A stretch of DNA of 64,000 nucleotides from Candidatus Didemnitutus sp. Its GTDB lineage: Bacteria > Verrucomicrobiota > Verrucomicrobiia > Opitutales > Opitutaceae. How positions within the stretch are numbered: the stretch's first letter is position 1; the number at the start of each line of letters is the position of its first letter. Below, in pieces: positions 2,615-41,136 of this stretch. The notes beneath the pieces are model-generated. The model had not been told where the DNA came from. It searched no databases and saw only the letters and a program-made list of their open reading frames with translations. The stretch covers positions 25,516 through 89,515 of the forward strand of contig JAMPXH010000001.1 of NCBI GenBank assembly GCA_023701285.1. Direction: 5' to 3'. A program made the translations under genes and the position numbers.

Positions 2615-5600
2615 TCAGCGCGCCACGCCGATCCGGAAGAAAGCCGTCGGCTCGCCCGCATTCAGAATCGCCGTGAAGAACGCGTGGTCGTCATCGCCCG
2701 CCGCCGTGCGGCGCTCGACCTCGGTCCACGATCCCGCGGCCAGCGTGGCGCTGCGCTCGAGCACGTAGGTGTGCCCGGCGCGGGCGCGGTAACCGATCTG
2801 CCAGCCGCCCACCGTAACGAGCGCCGGCTGCACCACGAACCGATCGCGCGCATCGAAAGGATCGCCGCCGGTGAGGAATTCCATGCGGTTGCTGTCCCCA
2901 TCGCCGTCCGCGTCCGCCGCGTCGTCGTTCCCCGTCAGCGGATCGAAACCATGCAGACGCTCCCAATAATCCGCCGCGCCGCCGCCGTCGCTGTCCGCCG
3001 CCCCGGCCCCGCGGTAGATCATATCCAAACTGTCACCGACGATCTCGCTCCACAGCGCCGCGTGCGCCAGCAGACCGTGCGGCGTGGCAAAGTGCACGCG
3101 GCTGCCGCCGAGGTCGCGATACTCAAGCCCGAGCGAGTCGCTGTCCGCCCCGCGCCACGCGAGCCCTTCGCTCCATAACTGCTCCTGCGCCTGCTGCACG
3201 TTCGGGTCGCCCGTCGTCTCGAGCGGCCAGCGGCTCGCGCGGGCCACGAACCACGGGAACGCCCAACCGGCGTCCGCGCGCGAGGAGACGATCACGTTGG
3301 CCAGCCGGTTGTAGTAATCCTGCCGTGACGTGCGCGTGGTGCCGGGCACGTGCGTGGAATCGCTCTCGCCCTGGTGCCAGAGCAGGGCGCGGAAGCCGCC
3401 CGGACCAAACTGCCGCGCGCGTGCCAGCAACCAGTTGTAGAGCCCGTTGTGGTAGGCGCCCGCGAAATCCGTGAAATCGTGCGGCGCCGTCGGCTGCCAT
3501 TCCGCGACGTCCGTGGCGCCCTGCCCTGCGATCGAGATCGCCACCGGCACGCCGAAACGCGCCGCCAGCTGGTCGCCGAACGCCGGGTAATAGCTGCCGC
3601 CGCTGCTCGTGTCGTGCGCGCCGGGCTGCGGATCGTGGCCTTCCTGCCAATGCGCGCCGCTGAACGAGCTGACGAGCCCCGACGCGGGATTCATCGGCCC
3701 TTCCGTGACCGCGAGATCGCTGTTCGCGTAGGCGCTGTTGGTTGAGTTCGACTGCCCGGCTGCGAGAAAAACCTCGCCCACGCCGAAGCGCTCGACCGTC
3801 CATTCCGCGATCACGGCGCCGGCCGCCCGCGCCCGCACCGTGGCGCGATACCAGCCGCCGGCGGGCAGCGTGAATTCCTGGGCGAACTTCAGCGTCGCCG
3901 CGTCGAAAGCCAGCGCCTGCTCGCCGGCGGGCAACGCGCCCGCGAGCGGCGGCGCGTGCAGATCCCCGGCGGAAAACTCGACCGTCACCTGCTCCGCCCC
4001 GGCCGGCGCGCGGCCGGCCACCCGCACCGGACCGTCCGTGCGCGTGGCGCGCTGGAACACCTGCCAATCCTGCGGCGCATCGACCGAGAGCGGATCGAAC
4101 GTGACCATGAACGACCGCACCGAACGCGGCGGCACGTCGAGCAACAGGAACTGGCGCGCCGGCGGCACGCCGTCCGGCCCGCTCGTCATCCGCTCGAAAC
4201 CCGTCAGGCGCAGCACGCGACCTGACTCATGGCGCAACACCACATCACCCGCGGCCGCGCCGGTGACGGCAACCGGAGTCGCCGCCGTCGCTCCGTCGCC
4301 GGTGCGCACCTGCGTGGCGACGGTGGCGTCGATCGAGAGCCGGTAGGTCGCTGTCGCGGTGTTGTCGTGGTTCTGTAGCATCACGACGTAGCGGCCGCGC
4401 GCGAAGCCGCCGGCCGTCATTTCGCGCAGCATGAAAGTCTTGTAGAAAAAGCTGCCGACCGTGCTCGCGTTTTGCACCGCAGTCGTGCCGCTGGCCGTGA
4501 ACGCACCGCCTTCGGGCCCGAGCCAGAAGAGTCCGCCGTGGCGCAGGTAGGCGAGCTGGTGATTGCCGGTCAGGTAGGCGTCGAAGGCGTCGGTGGTGAT
4601 GCTGAAGTTGGAGCCGTTGCGGCGCACTTCGGCGACAGGCGCGACAACGGGCGTCGTGGCCAGCGCGGCGGCGAAATCCGTGGCAACCCGCAGGTCGTCC
4701 ACGTCGAAGCGCCCGAGGTTGGTGCCGTCGGTGTTGAGCACGCGCAGCGCCACGCCGCTGAACGTGTAGGTGCCCATGTCGCCCGTTTTTGCGGCGACCG
4801 CATCGGCCGGCTCTGCTTCCTCAGCGGCATCGATCCACAGCGCGCTGTCGTTCGTGGCGGCGTCGTGGCGCACCACCACGCGATAGGGCGTGCCCGGCAC
4901 GAGGTCGCGTGCGGCGAACACCGCGGTGGCCGCCATGGCGTCGGTCGACACGCCGAGTTGCGCTGTGCCGGACGTCGCGCCGGCGCGCAGCCAGACGTGG
5001 CCGTTGAAGGTCGTGGCATTGGCGATCCCCTGCAGGGCCTGGAACCAACCGCTCGCGCCCGGCGCAGGGGCCGCGCGCACCGTGATCGTGAAGGCGCGAT
5101 ACGACACCGGCCCGAGTTGCCCGGCAGTCGGGGCGCGGTGGTATTGGCGGTCACCGCTGAAGTTCCGGCGATAGACGCCGGCGTTCGTCGCAGGCGTCGT
5201 GTAATCGAATACGAGCGCGTCGTCCGCGACTTGGAGCGACGGCGCGCCGTCGCCCACGCTCCAACGGGCGCTGGAGTTGGAGCGCAGCTCGCCCGTGCCG
5301 TAGGGGAAACGCTCCCAGAGCAACACCGCGGGATCGTAGCGCAGATTCACAGCGGCAAGCGTGCCGGTGCCGAACCCGGCCGGCACCGTCGGCGCGGGCG
5401 CGGCCACGGTGCCGCGCAACACGTCGACCTGCACGTCATCGAGCAGAAAGTCGATGTAGGCATCGCTCGTGGTGGTGTTGAATTCAATCTGGCCGAGATT
5501 CGACGGCGCGGTGCGGTAGCTCAGCGTGTTGTCGAAGGGGCCGACGCCGCGGTAAACGGCATCGAGGAAGAGCGCGACGGAGTTTGCCGCCAGCGTGCGG

Positions 5601-6256
5601 GCGACGCCGTCGGGGCCCGCGTATTCGAGCGTCTCCGAGTCGTGATCGTTGAGGTAGAGCACGACTTGGTGCGCTTCCGCCGGGGTGAACGTGACATTGA
5701 GATCGTTCGCGGAACCGGAGAGATCGAGGCGAAGCGCGCCGTTGGTCGCGAGCGTGAGCAGCATCGGACGGTTGGCGCTGCTCGCCAGGGTCATGCCGAG
5801 CTGACCTGCGCTGAAGCGCAGCGTCTTCGCGTCCGTGCCGTGGTTGGCCGTGGCCGCGAAGGCGAACGCCACCCGCACCGCCGTGGCCATCTCCGCCGCG
5901 TTCGCCGCGAAGTCGTAGCGCAGCACCGTGCCGGTATCAGTGTCGTAATCGAAGAAGCGCACGAATTTCCCCGTGCCCGGCACCGGAGCGGCCGGCATTC
6001 CCGTGTAGGGTCCCACCGCGACGCCACGCGGGCCCGTCGTGCTCGGCGTCACGGGCAGCGGCGTCGTGGCGCCCACCGGCGAGGTCGGGCTCACGCTGCT
6101 CGCCGGCGGCGCCGCGCCGGCCACTCCCGACTCATAATCCATCCACAGCACCGGATCAGCCGCGCCGGCGGTCGCAGCCAGCAGCGCGAGGCTGCCGAGC
6201 AGGGCCCCGACACGGGGCAGAGAAGGGGCGGACCAAGGACGCAACAGCAGGAACAT
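2615..6256 (-). CDS. Large secreted sialate O-acetylesterase/SGNH-like (DUF303) protein with N-terminal beta-sandwich regions and Ca-binding-like C-terminal module
   Basis: Signal peptide; GEVFLAAGQSNSTNS and ALLWHQGESDS motifs; C-terminal DADGDGDSNRMEFLTGGDP...TAFFRIGV. Confidence 0.75.
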   Translation of the reverse strand: MFLLLRPWSAPSLPRVGALLGSLALLAATAGAADPVLWMDYESGVAGAAPPASSVSPTSPVGATTPLPVTPSTTGPRGVAVGPYTGMPAAPVPGTGKFVRFFDYDTDTGTVLRYDFAANAAEMATAVRVAFAFAATANHGTDAKTLRFSAGQLGMTLASSANRPMLLTLATNGALRLDLSGSANDLNVTFTPAEAHQVVLYLNDHDSETLEYAGPDGVARTLAANSVALFLDAVYRGVGPFDNTLSYRTAPSNLGQIEFNTTTSDAYIDFLLDDVQVDVLRGTVAAPAPTVPAGFGTGTLAAVNLRYDPAVLLWERFPYGTGELRSNSSARWSVGDGAPSLQVADDALVFDYTTPATNAGVYRRNFSGDRQYHRAPTAGQLGPVSYRAFTITVRAAPAPGASGWFQALQGIANATTFNGHVWLRAGATSGTAQLGVSTDAMAATAVFAARDLVPGTPYRVVVRHDAATNDSALWIDAAEEAEPADAVAAKTGDMGTYTFSGVALRVLNTDGTNLGRFDVDDLRVATDFAAALATTPVVAPVAEVRRNGSNFSITTDAFDAYLTGNHQLAYLRHGGLFWLGPEGGAFTASGTTAVQNASTVGSFFYKTFMLREMTAGGFARGRYVVMLQNHDNTATATYRLSIDATVATQVRTGDGATAATPVAVTGAAAGDVVLRHESGRVLRLTGFERMTSGPDGVPPARQFLLLDVPPRSVRSFMVTFDPLSVDAPQDWQVFQRATRTDGPVRVAGRAPAGAEQVTVEFSAGDLHAPPLAGALPAGEQALAFDAATLKFAQEFTLPAGGWYRATVRARAAGAVIAEWTVERFGVGEVFLAAGQSNSTNSAYANSDLAVTEGPMNPASGLVSSFSGAHWQEGHDPQPGAHDTSSGGSYYPAFGDQLAARFGVPVAISIAGQGATDVAEWQPTAPHDFTDFAGAYHNGLYNWLLARARQFGPGGFRALLWHQGESDSTHVPGTTRTSRQDYYNRLANVIVSSRADAGWAFPWFVARASRWPLETTGDPNVQQAQEQLWSEGLAWRGADSDSLGLEYRDLGGSRVHFATPHGLLAHAALWSEIVGDSLDMIYRGAGAADSDGGGAADYWERLHGFDPLTGNDDAADADGDGDSNRMEFLTGGDPFDARDRFVVQPALVTVGGWQIGYRARAGHTYVLERSATLAAGSWTEVERRTAAGDDDHAFFTAILNAGEPTAFFRIGVAR

Positions 6257-6382
6257 GGGGACGGCCAGCTGAGCTAATAATAATTAAATTGTCGAGCCGA
6301 AAGCCGTTCGGGCATCGCCGCACGCGCCGGTCTGCGGCCCATTTCGATGAATCCACCGGAGCGGCCGGAGCGTAAGCTGGGC

Positions 6383-37290: not shown

Positions 37291-38082
37291 TCAGATCGCT
37301 TCGTGAATCCAAAGCAGTGTGAGAATGAACCGGCTATCGCGTGCCCGCATAGAGTCCTCGGTGATATACTCCTTCCCATTGGGTCGGAAGCCGCGGATCC
37401 ACATGCCCGCCGGCACGTCCTGCGCGCGTGATTGCGTTTCAGGGCCTTGCAGGAGTTCATTCGCACAACTGTAGCGATGGATTTCCGTTTCGTCGCGCGG
37501 CCAGAAGTCTAGCGCCTGATCGCCCATCACGAACCATTTTCGCTCCCCATTTTCAGAAGCGACCAGAAGCACTGGTTCGCTGCTATAGTGCACAAACTGA
37601 ATCGCCGCGGACGACAACGTGGTTTGATAGCGATCAGCTAACCGTTTCACAGCGTCCCACCCTGGCTCGCAAAGACGAGCCTCCGGTTGGAAAAATTGCT
37701 TAGGCATGAGCAACTCTGCGGCGAAGTAATTCGCTTCGAGCTCCTCTGGTTGCTGGCGATGATTGAAATTGCGCGTCTGTGTGACGTCGACTTCGTCCAT
37801 CTGACGGATGTTCGGGTGCAAGAGAACATGGCCCAACTCGTGGGCGATGATCATTCGCCGCTGTCCCGTGCGCGTTATGGCCTCGTTGACCGTGATGATC
37901 GCCAAACCGTCCGAACGGACCATCCGCCCGTGGCAACCAGCAAGAGGTGCGTAGCGAACCGGTGCGTTTTTGTAGGGAGCGATTTTCTCGATGATGATCT
38001 CGGCCGGATCGCGAATTTGTAGCTCCGTGATGAGGTCACGTGCCCGACACACCGCTCCCGCGTAGCTCGGAACCTTGGTCAC
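37291..38082 (-). CDS. ImmA/IrrE family metallo-endopeptidase
   Basis: MIIAHELGHVLLHP (HExxH) and downstream LEANYFAAELLMP. Confidence 0.92.
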   Translation of the reverse strand: MTKVPSYAGAVCRARDLITELQIRDPAEIIIEKIAPYKNAPVRYAPLAGCHGRMVRSDGLAIITVNEAITRTGQRRMIIAHELGHVLLHPNIRQMDEVDVTQTRNFNHRQQPEELEANYFAAELLMPKQFFQPEARLCEPGWDAVKRLADRYQTTLSSAAIQFVHYSSEPVLLVASENGERKWFVMGDQALDFWPRDETEIHRYSCANELLQGPETQSRAQDVPAGMWIRGFRPNGKEYITEDSMRARDSRFILTLLWIHEAI

Positions 38083-38534
38083 AGTGTAGGGGGCTGCTCC
38101 GGTGGAGTCTCATGCTGGAGTTCCAGGAGAATATCCACTTCGTCGAGAAACGCCGCTTTGCTTTCGACCGTGACGCTTGTGAGATTGCTGAAGGCGGTCT
38201 GGACCCGGAGTTGCCCTTGCGCGCCGTAGCGTCCGCTGCGCACCGCGTTAAAGGCGGTGTTAATTTCGTCCGCGGTGCGCCCCAGCCACGAACGCCGGGT
38301 TCGGCCGGCGGCATTGGCTCGCGCTTGCAAGGCGTCCCCCTGCTGCATCCAACTCAACCGCGACTCGCGGGAAAGAGCGGCCGCGCGCGCCTTGAGCCGC
38401 GTCACGAGCGCTTCGGGATCGTAACCCTTCTCACAGAGGCTAGCTTTGACCTCGGCCGCAGTCAGGCCATCGGTCCGGCTCAAGCCTTCGACAATCCGCC
38501 CGAGGGGCGGATGCTCGAATTCAGCGGGATTCAT
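38079..38534 (-). CDS. Hypothetical protein, 151 aa, translationally coupled to ImmA/IrrE gene
   Basis: 4-nt overlaps with both neighbours on the minus strand. Confidence 0.75.
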   Translation of the reverse strand: MNPAEFEHPPLGRIVEGLSRTDGLTAAEVKASLCEKGYDPEALVTRLKARAAALSRESRLSWMQQGDALQARANAAGRTRRSWLGRTADEINTAFNAVRSGRYGAQGQLRVQTAFSNLTSVTVESKAAFLDEVDILLELQHETPPEQPPTL

Positions 38535-39184
38535 GAGACCTCCTGTAATGGTTTGATATCGGCATACTGGGGATTCTGGCGAAGAATTTTTTCGGCTTTG
38601 CCTTCAAGTTTGCGCTTCAATTCGGAGATCCGGGTGGGCGCGAGTCCCGTTTGCTCGGCGATTTTCGCCGGCGTGTAGTGCCCTTCTTCATAGGCCAGCA
38701 GCAGGAGTCCGAGTTCCTCGTCGTCCGCGACACTGTTGGCGAGGAGCGTGCAAAACTCGCGCTGCTGCCGCTTCCGTTCGTCCGCTTCCGCCGCGTTCGC
38801 CGGCAGGGTCGGGTCCGGTGCGTTCTCGATCAGGTCCACTTGCTGATGATCAACGTCCTCCCGCACCACATGATTGGCGATCGGCGAACGACAGGCCTGC
38901 TTGTAATGGTTTCGGACTAAACTCCAAATGACGGCACGGAGGTTTTGTTCCAGCGACTGGTCGGCGTGGTAGGCACGCCGACCCTGCGCCAGTGCCTCCA
39001 GCGCTTCCTCCACGATTTCATCCGCGGTGCAGTTGTTGATCGTGACGGCCGTCGCGCGTGAACCCGCCATCGCCAATCCGCGCCACCGGCAACCAACGAT
39101 CTCGTAGTGCGCGTAGCGCAGGAGCTGCGGACCGAGGTGTTCCCAATCGGCGATCTCAATAGCGGCGACGGCAGCGGTCTGCAT
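38531..39184 (-). CDS. Sigma-70/ECF-like sigma factor
   Basis: TADEIVEEALEALAQG...NLRAVIWSLVRNHYKQ and C-terminal HTH-like YTPAKIAEQTGLAPTRISELKRKLEGK. Confidence 0.7.
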   Translation of the reverse strand: MQTAAVAAIEIADWEHLGPQLLRYAHYEIVGCRWRGLAMAGSRATAVTINNCTADEIVEEALEALAQGRRAYHADQSLEQNLRAVIWSLVRNHYKQACRSPIANHVVREDVDHQQVDLIENAPDPTLPANAAEADERKRQQREFCTLLANSVADDEELGLLLLAYEEGHYTPAKIAEQTGLAPTRISELKRKLEGKAEKILRQNPQYADIKPLQEVS

Positions 39185-39257
39185 GGAACTCAGACATAGC
39201 GGAACGGAGCAGACGGCCAACTAAACAAAATTCCGGGCGCGAAATATTTTTCCCCAG

Positions 39258-39269
39258 AAACGGCCGTTT
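39258..39269. promoter_or_regulatory. Candidate operator between the divergent arms of the ubiquitin-like locus
   Basis: Perfect 12-bp palindrome AAACGGCCGTTT in the 39185-39331 intergenic region. Confidence 0.4.
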
Positions 39270-39331
39270 TCGGAGGAAGTAATGTGGCGAGTCGTGGCAA
39301 TTCCGCCGCTCCCGCCCACCAACCAACCGTC

Positions 39332-39613
39332 ATGAGTAACGCAGACAACGCTCCCGGGCAGAACCGGGACCACGACCGCAAAGAGGTCACGATCGTCGTC
39401 AACGGCCGATCGAAAACGATCACCCAAAAGGATCTGACCTTCGACGAGGTCGTCACGCTCGCGTTCGGTCCGCCGAACTACGAAACGAGCGTTTACACCG
39501 TCACCTACCAGAAAGGCGACGAGCACAAGCCGAAGGGCAGCCTCGTGCAGGGCCAGTCGGTCAAAATCAAAGATGGGATGATCTTCGATGTCCTCCGCAC
39601 TGATAAATCTTAG
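39332..39613 (+). CDS. Multiubiquitin-family ubiquitin-like protein (single Ubl domain)
   Basis: KEVTIVVNGRSKTITQKDLTFDEVVTLAFGPPNYETSVYTVTYQKGDEHKPKGSLVQGQSVKIKDGMIFDVLRTDKS; alternative GTG start at 39284 has a better-placed GGAGG. Confidence 0.85.
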   Translation: MSNADNAPGQNRDHDRKEVTIVVNGRSKTITQKDLTFDEVVTLAFGPPNYETSVYTVTYQKGDEHKPKGSLVQGQSVKIKDGMIFDVLRTDKS

Positions 39614-40763
39614 TCCCGACCTCCTCCGTCTGCGGAACGAGGGGTTTGAGGTGGCCGTGCAAGCCGGCCACCTCGTCATCGGCAATGTGCCGTATGTCAA
39701 CGCGCGCCGCGAAGTCGTGCGCGGGATGCTCGTGTCCGAACTGACTCTGGCGGGCAACCAGACGGCACGGCCGTCCACCCACGTGGCGCTGTTCGCCGGT
39801 TCTCAACCGTGCAACATTGACGGCTCCTTCATTGGCGGCCTGCAGATCGGCGAAGCCGTCCAGGATCTTGGCCACGGGTTGATCGTGCACCGCACGTTTT
39901 CCAACAAGCCACCCGAAGGTTACGGCGACTACTACGCGAAGATGAGTCGGTATATCACGATCTTATCGGCGCCGGCTCGCGCCCTTGACCCGACGGCCCG
40001 GGCCCAGACCTTCAAGCCCATCGCCGAGATAGATGAGGAGTCGCCCTTCGTTTATCTCGACACCAATACCAGTCGGGCACACTTGGGCGCGGTGACCGCC
40101 AAATTGCGCGGCCTGCGCGTTGCAATCGTTGGGGTCGGCGGCACCGGTTCCTATGTCCTCGATCTCGTGGCCAAAACGCCGGTGCGGGAAATTCATCTGT
40201 TCGACGGCGACGTGTTCTTGCAGCACAATGCATTTCGTGCGCCCGGCGCGGCCCCGCTCGAAAAACTGGCGCCGACGGTGCCGAAGGTGGATTACTTTCG
40301 CGAGATTTACGCGAAGATGCACAAGGGCATCGTCTCGCATGCCGAATTCCTGGTCGCGGCCAACGCCGCGAGTCTGACCGGCTTCGACTACGTGTTCCTC
40401 TGCATGGACGCGAGCGAGGCCAAACGGGAACTGATCGATTTCCTGTTGCGGAAAGGTATTCCGTGCATCGATGCCGGCCTCGGCGTTCAGGAAGTTGACG
40501 GCAAGCTGCTCGGGCTGGTGCGTGTCACTACGCTGACCGCCGACAAACACGACCATCGCGCGCTCCGGATTTCCTGCATCGCCACCGCGGAGGACGACTA
40601 TTCGAGCAATATCCAGATCGCGGACCTCAATATGCTCAATGCGGCGTTCGCCGTCCTCAAGTGGAAGAAGCTCGCCGGTTTCTACGTCGATTACGAGCGG
40701 GAGCACAACAGCCTCTACACCCTCAGCGGGAACCTTCTCCTCAGTGAAGACATTCCAGCCTAA
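39588..40763 (+). CDS. E1-like ThiF adenylyltransferase with N-terminal DUF6791-type domain
   Basis: VAIVGVGGTGSYVLDLVAKTPVREIHLFDGDVFLQHNAFRAPGA; N-terminal THVALFAGSQPCNIDG...HRTFSNKPPEGYGDYYAKMSRYI; overlaps Ubl gene by 26 nt. Confidence 0.9.
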   Translation: MSSALINLSPDLLRLRNEGFEVAVQAGHLVIGNVPYVNARREVVRGMLVSELTLAGNQTARPSTHVALFAGSQPCNIDGSFIGGLQIGEAVQDLGHGLIVHRTFSNKPPEGYGDYYAKMSRYITILSAPARALDPTARAQTFKPIAEIDEESPFVYLDTNTSRAHLGAVTAKLRGLRVAIVGVGGTGSYVLDLVAKTPVREIHLFDGDVFLQHNAFRAPGAAPLEKLAPTVPKVDYFREIYAKMHKGIVSHAEFLVAANAASLTGFDYVFLCMDASEAKRELIDFLLRKGIPCIDAGLGVQEVDGKLLGLVRVTTLTADKHDHRALRISCIATAEDDYSSNIQIADLNMLNAAFAVLKWKKLAGFYVDYEREHNSLYTLSGNLLLSEDIPA

Positions 40764-41136
40764 GTTCGTCGAATTCATGCCGGAGGCCTTGGAGGAGGGG
40801 CTCCTCTATATCTCACCGCGTTTCGCCCTGGTTTCTCACCGTTGCCCTTGTGGGTGCGGCGAAGAGGTCGTGCTGAAACTCTCCCGCACCGATTGGCAGA
40901 TGGTTTTCGATGGCGAGGCGGTGTCAATCTACCCGTCAGTCGGCAATTGGGGACTGCCTTGCCGCTCACATTACTGGATCGTCGAAAATTGCGTGCGGTG
41001 GGCGCCCCGCTGGTCTGAAGCGAGAATCAAGATTCACAGAGCAAATAACAGTCCAGGCTCATCCGAACCGCCACCAGCGATACGATCACTTCGAGTTTGG
41101 TCGTTCTTTCACCGCAAGCGGTTTGGTTTAGAATAA
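40744..41136 (+). CDS. DUF6527 family zinc-binding protein
   Basis: HRCPCGCGEEVVLKL...SIYPSVGNWGLPCRSHYWIVENCVRWAP; GTG start, overlaps ThiF gene by 20 nt. Confidence 0.85.
   Translation: MKTFQPKFVEFMPEALEEGLLYISPRFALVSHRCPCGCGEEVVLKLSRTDWQMVFDGEAVSIYPSVGNWGLPCRSHYWIVENCVRWAPRWSEARIKIHRANNSPGSSEPPPAIRSLRVWSFFHRKRFGLE

Follow-up and report, generated by a model that had tools for sequence, protein, structure and literature searches.

A conserved sigma–X–CapP triad as a candidate portable controller of a ubiquitin-like operon and other bacterial immune operons

In a 64,000-nt stretch of the Candidatus Didemnitutus sp. genome (contig JAMPXH010000001.1; this whole stretch is called the window below), an operon encoding a ubiquitin-like protein (Ubl), an E1-like enzyme and a DUF6527 protein lies head to head with a second operon on the minus strand, which encodes a sigma-like protein, a small protein of no known family (here X) and a CapP-like metallopeptidase. 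Do the two arms act together, and if so, by what logic? The six open reading frames (ORFs), with overlaps of 26, 20 and 4 nt, had been described in an initial annotation, and all of them were found as described. The same six-gene layout was seen again in unrelated genomes (L004, L009 and L066; L-numbers are labels of comparison loci) and is therefore not a product of chance. We consider it fairly probable that the Ubl operon is under the control of a portable proteolytic sigma switch, in which X is an anti-sigma factor that CapP cleaves to free the sigma factor.

The protease gene (37291–38082, minus strand; 263 aa, GTG start) overlaps the X gene (38079–38534, minus strand; 151 aa) by 4 nt, and X overlaps the sigma gene (38531–39184, minus strand) by another 4 nt. 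For the latter, position favors the ATG at 39184 (217 aa) over the TTG at 39220 (229 aa). The protease matched Pfam Peptidase_M78 (2e-17), PADLOC capP over nearly its full length (6e-52) and the solved CapP structure 7t5t (2e-14); it carries the HELGH motif together with the third-ligand Glu, and HExxH is kept in all 32 of the 32 triad proteases. Homology thus assigns it to CapP almost from end to end. A profile built from ten relatives of the sigma-like protein matched the solved extracytoplasmic function (ECF) sigma factor SigH (5zx2) at 6.6e-5 over profile positions 39–182, and the family matches ECF sigma factors across regions 2 and 4. X matched no Pfam, NCBIfam or PADLOC family, and a single-sequence search recovered the window only, so that a profile was required to find relatives; compared with CapH-like proteins, this profile gave no meaningful similarity. 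Two matches in the PDB were set aside as repeat artefacts: one between X and a repeat protein deposited as lysozyme, the other between the sigma-like protein and a cap-repeat protein.

Judged from their sequences, the three genes are a conserved, co-diverging and translationally coupled triad. The order sigma–X–CapP is fixed, the genes mostly overlap, and the three proteins have diverged in step (r 0.77–0.81 between their sequence distances). The complete left arm also has relatives in Cytophagia (L004), in a different Verrucomicrobiota family (L009) and on numerous plasmids. Because the query of the X profile held neither sigma nor CapP, linkage to these two genes serves as an independent check. 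The profile found matches in 24 of 396 sampled Bacteroidota genomes, and 15 of these 24 contain the full triad, counting one query genome and one X–CapP fusion; the full triad was also found in four of 289 Verrucomicrobiota genomes, two of which are query genomes. Triad genomes beyond the queries thus number 14 in Bacteroidota and two in Verrucomicrobiota. A single weak match, with neither sigma nor CapP as neighbor, was obtained in 399 sampled Pseudomonadota genomes, and profile matches lacking these neighbors were mostly long unrelated ORFs. The 151-aa protein, initially listed as unknown, does stand outside the known families, and its description can be refined to a conserved part of the putative controller.

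The protease and a dedicated sigma-like factor had been proposed to form an inducible module with the Ubl arm. To see what the triad faces, 35 triads were inspected, with loci found by E1 bait excluded. The set counts L160, which has no CapP beside sigma and X, and L070, in which CapP is short. Its plasmid loci had been chosen among CapP or sigma matches with their neighbors still unseen, and they are a convenience sample rather than a census. Left out of it were L074, which meets a contig end, and the viral contig L079, where X and CapP point away from an E2-like ORF and from a JAB-ThiF E1 that seems to be disrupted and neighbors a resolvase gene, and where no sigma gene was detected. A recognisable immune operon is divergent to the triad in 21 of the 35 loci. 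These comprise Ubl/E1 operons with or without E2, JAB and DUF6527 (L022, L060, L063, L066, L076, L160, L161, L164, L185), a Ubl remnant (L023), a Bil (bacterial ISG15-like) operon (L065; BilD 2e-134), CBASS-type cyclases (cyclic oligonucleotide-based antiphage signaling system; L019, L056, L068, L072, L163, L184), a Pycsar (pyrimidine cyclase system for antiphage resistance) cyclase with E2 (L020; PycC 4e-232) and E1-JAB operons (L024, L061, L064), with an E2 domain in L064 and metallo-β-lactamase-like first genes in L024 and L061. Seven other triads lie opposite small ORFs, mostly with DUF2188 or DUF3892, and L018 faces a 'beta' protein that is a PADLOC defence candidate.

The Ubl arm and the protease/sigma arm are linked in other phyla, and neither of the outcomes that would have spoken against the initial proposal (no ThiF, multiubiquitin or DUF6527 matches; no association of the arms in other genomes) was observed. 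The protease/sigma arm, however, also stands beside CBASS, Pycsar, Bil and other operons. It is not Ubl-specific, and its gene neighborhoods mark it as a portable controller of varied immune operons. The converse exchange is seen as well: at the same divergent position, Ubl–E1–DUF6527 operons elsewhere carry helix-turn-helix (HTH) plus IrrE genes (L001, L025, L026; CapH+CapP-like), an HTH-IrrE fusion (L003) or WYL regulators (L017, L027). Controllers and immune operons are thus exchanged, with sigma and X in the slot of the repressor CapH. Small proteins of a ~92-aa family or with DUF2188 or DUF3892 were observed opposite the triad promoter in L019, L021, L055, L057, L058, L070, L159 and L162; such proteins might act as minimal effectors or have accessory roles.

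Both promoters of the window are expected in the divergent intergenic region (39185–39332). A mirrored bipartite element precedes the sigma gene in many triads, and the mirrored arms reached p 0.01 (0 of 100 shuffles as good) in 12 of 27 triads. Proteobacterial triads share the pattern TGTCCG-N17/18-G[CT][AC]TA before the sigma gene, which was derived by eye on the first 11 triads. It stands before sigma in 10 of these 11, with an exact mirror copy towards the divergent operon in six, and 16 of its 17 matches in 2.74 Mb of strand over 127 loci fall in triad promoters. A prediction for six held-out triads was written down before they were fetched; the element, with at most one mismatch, was then found 8–28 nt before the sigma start in five of the six, and an oppositely facing copy likewise in five of six. 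The viral sequences searched contained no match to the exact mirrored motif. The mirrored elements in these other triads strengthen the earlier suggestion that the two arms would act together.

Sites that are palindromic as a whole could be bound by a repressor, and CapH+CapP, a documented scheme, occupies the same place in sister loci. The sigma-like protein would then be a DNA-binding repressor, and CapP would relieve repression by cleaving either this protein or X as its co-repressor. However, in most triads the half-site elements lie 17–18 nt apart and precede the start codon by 8–28 nt, as −35 and −10 boxes do; in spacing and position, the element resembles a promoter read by a sigma factor more than an operator. 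Together with the family's match to regions 2 and 4 of ECF sigma factors, this makes the repressor explanation unlikely.

With the element taken as a promoter, we infer the following course for the proposed sigma switch, in which X would be both anti-sigma factor and CapP substrate. In the resting cell, X would keep the dedicated ECF-type sigma factor inactive. Infection or DNA-damage stress, with single-stranded DNA (ssDNA) as the probable signal by analogy with CapP and PprI, would switch on the CapP-like metallopeptidase, which would cut X. The freed sigma factor could then bring RNA polymerase to the paired divergent promoters and raise transcription of the Ubl operon as well as of its own; the products of the Ubl operon may in turn modify cell or phage proteins. 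Placing CapP, X and sigma in the roles known from the CapH/CapP and Calp schemes makes this, by analogy, what seems the best explanation.

How does such a switch compare with known systems? ssDNA triggers the cleavage of CapH by CapP (PMC13373217; PMC10904395), and CapW or CapH+CapP is found at 219 of 544 operons of the Bub (bacterial ubiquitination-like) pathway (EMBO J 2026, PMC13373217). The triad resembles CapH+CapP in its homologous CapP, its upstream divergent position and the kind of operon controlled, but it has sigma and X in place of the HTH repressor CapH, and no Pfam HTH family scored above cut-off. Because of these partners, the left arm is not classified as CapH+CapP, and the replacement implies activation rather than derepression. 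In CRISPR-Calp, the protease CalpL cuts the anti-sigma factor CalpT and releases the sigma factor CalpS (PMC12751052), which offers a working analogy for a proteolysed anti-sigma factor: a protease, a third partner and a sigma factor in an antiviral setting. CalpL, however, belongs to the Lon-SAVED proteases and responds to cyclic tetra-adenylate, whereas the triad protease is an M78 metallopeptidase, and no CRISPR or SAVED match was found among the six proteins. CapK+CapS and CapW are likewise portable regulators of adjoining immune operons and are responsive to DNA damage (PMC13373217), but the former is a kinase/STAS repressor and the latter a WYL repressor, both without sigma factor or protease. 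PprI(IrrE)-DdrO of Deinococcus shares the M78 protease, and PprI is activated by ssDNA (PMC10904395), but the protein that it cleaves is an HTH repressor acting on DNA repair genes.

The three portable immune-operon controllers described so far, CapW, CapH+CapP and CapK+CapS, include none with a sigma factor (PMC13373217). Our literature search, whose coverage excluded most subscription journals and the two main Bub papers so that a prior description is possible, returned no description of a sigma–X–CapP triad. On balance, the triad seems to be an undescribed class of portable immune controller, fired by DNA damage and activating, rather than derepressing, the CBASS, Pycsar, Bil or Ubl operon divergent to it. 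Known portable immune regulators are repressor-based, and a sigma-based activator fired by a protease would represent a different control logic. It would connect protein cleavage inside the cell with the transcription of immune genes, a link that Calp makes for type III CRISPR, and its promoter signature could guide the search for further immune operons, among them those of unknown function opposite the cassette.

Several observations weigh against a sigma switch with X as the anti-sigma factor. No anti-sigma fold is recognised in X, nor does it have a detectable fold relative. The match of the sigma-like protein to NCBIfam TIGR02937 (sigma70-ECF superfamily), at 2e-8 over model positions 21–163 of 165, falls below the model cut-off. 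For the promoter pattern, only the six held-out loci are independent of its derivation, and some triads stand opposite operons without known immune function. The window's own imperfect palindrome (39238–39289) has arms that are 70% complementary, and its promoter pair gave p 0.57, 0.01 and 0.89 by three statistics, which is not convincingly above chance; as it passed only one of these three post-hoc tests, this palindrome is not claimed as a promoter element. Two exceptional loci also count here. L160 has sigma and X without an adjoining CapP, and the fusion protein of L076 (5318–6952) keeps only the N-terminal half of X, followed by a CapP-like domain and a macro-domain-like C-terminus.

This fusion, encoded directly after sigma and facing a Ubl–E1–DUF6527 operon, fits a direct partnership of X and CapP, the direction of which it does not fix. 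X might then be an inhibitor, adaptor or chaperone of CapP, with CapP acting on sigma or on a host protein and sigma being set in some other way. The two genes are adjacent whenever both are present, and a protein without detectable fold relatives could suit such a role. In contrast, L160 retains X beside sigma where no CapP gene adjoins, and the distances of X track those of sigma no less closely than those of CapP; we hold this explanation to be doubtful, slightly more so than repression. In two further loci, CapP is short (L070), and a separate macro-domain-like gene (5157–6323) lies near CapP (L004).

The genomic surroundings of the locus point to acquisition. The ~4-kb block has 59% G+C, compared with 69–70% outside it, and four congeneric genomes, in which the flank lacks the block, share the adjoining FGGY kinase at 82–87% identity. 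Because of this difference in G+C and the missing block beside the FGGY orthologue in four congeners, the block is most likely an acquired island. That the two arms are mere neighbors in such a defence island, each regulated independently, would agree with this origin and with the unconvincing palindrome of the window, but is very improbable given the divergent head-to-head layout with immune operons that is repeated across phyla with mirrored promoter elements.

What, then, would the proposed sigma switch control in the window? A Pfam search of the six proteins agreed with the domains named in the initial annotation (Multi_ubiq, ThiF, DUF6791, DUF6527 and M78). The Ubl gene (39333–39613, plus strand; ATG start) encodes a single β-grasp domain of the multiubiquitin type (Multi_ubiq, 2e-14). 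It is followed by the E1-like gene (39588–40763, plus strand; 391 aa, GxGGTG nucleotide motif), which overlaps it by 26 nt, and by the DUF6527 gene (40744–41136, plus strand; 130 aa from GTG), which overlaps the E1-like gene by 20 nt. Longer Ubl and DUF6527 ORFs from 39284 and 40639 are over-extended, since homologue alignments and position point to starts at 39333 and 40744. The exact 26-nt overlap recurs in the distant loci L012–L017, L025 and L027. The TDKS tail of the Ubl and the MSQQLINLS N-terminus of the E1 are thereby encoded by the same bases, and the conservation of either may partly reflect the other.

The Ubl matched the last domain of PDB 9cd2 (6e-14), with which it shares the C-terminal TDKS and no Gly-Gly. 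The E1-like protein matched DUF6791 (1e-52), ThiF (2e-15) and NCBIfam NF004805 (7e-160). Its profile found Citrobacter BubCD (9ea4/9ea5) as the best PDB match (7e-10), in the ThiF part only, while a single-sequence search of the PDB placed the tRNA-modifying TcdA slightly above BubCD. BubCD also ranked first for an AlphaFold model, the confidence of which (predicted local distance difference test, pLDDT, 49) is too low to lean on. The DUF6527 protein matched its Pfam family (1e-23) and shows an invariant H-x-C-x-C-G-C ... C-x-S-H set in alignments, which is likely to bind metal. It had no match to BubB or any PDB chain, though entries containing BubB were in the database, and a fold search with its AlphaFold model (pLDDT 53, too poor to use) gave no match.

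A multiubiquitin Ubl and a ThiF-type E1, as in Bub operons, are both present in the window. Bub operons also include an E2-like partner and a dedicated peptidase (summarised in PMC12687455). In the window, the BubCD match stops short of DUF6791 by sequence, and Pfam recognised no Prok-E2 or JAB domain among the six proteins. Since neither an E2 nor a peptidase was identified as a component of its own, the right arm is treated as Bub-like but not classified as Bub. The E1 might contain its E2-like part in DUF6791, a point for which the E1 model is too poor to judge. A near-invariant Cys75 in DUF6791 (Pro-Cys...Gly; His in one relative) is a candidate transfer residue, and the ThiF part was observed to have no invariant cysteine. 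Relatives of the E1 occur in 117 plasmid records and were absent from the phage records and viral contigs searched. As a relative of the published Bub pathway that is common on plasmids, the right arm is of a known kind and in itself not new.

The sigma and UvrD genes that precede Ubl operons of the Acinetobacter type escaped detection by the sigma and X profiles. On plasmids of Cereibacter, Klebsiella and Acinetobacter (L013, L015 and L016), a UvrD-family helicase and a small hypothetical gene precede Ubl–E1–DUF6527 on the same strand, and in L016 an annotated sigma-70 gene lies before this pair. These upstream genes possibly represent another regulatory or effector arrangement.

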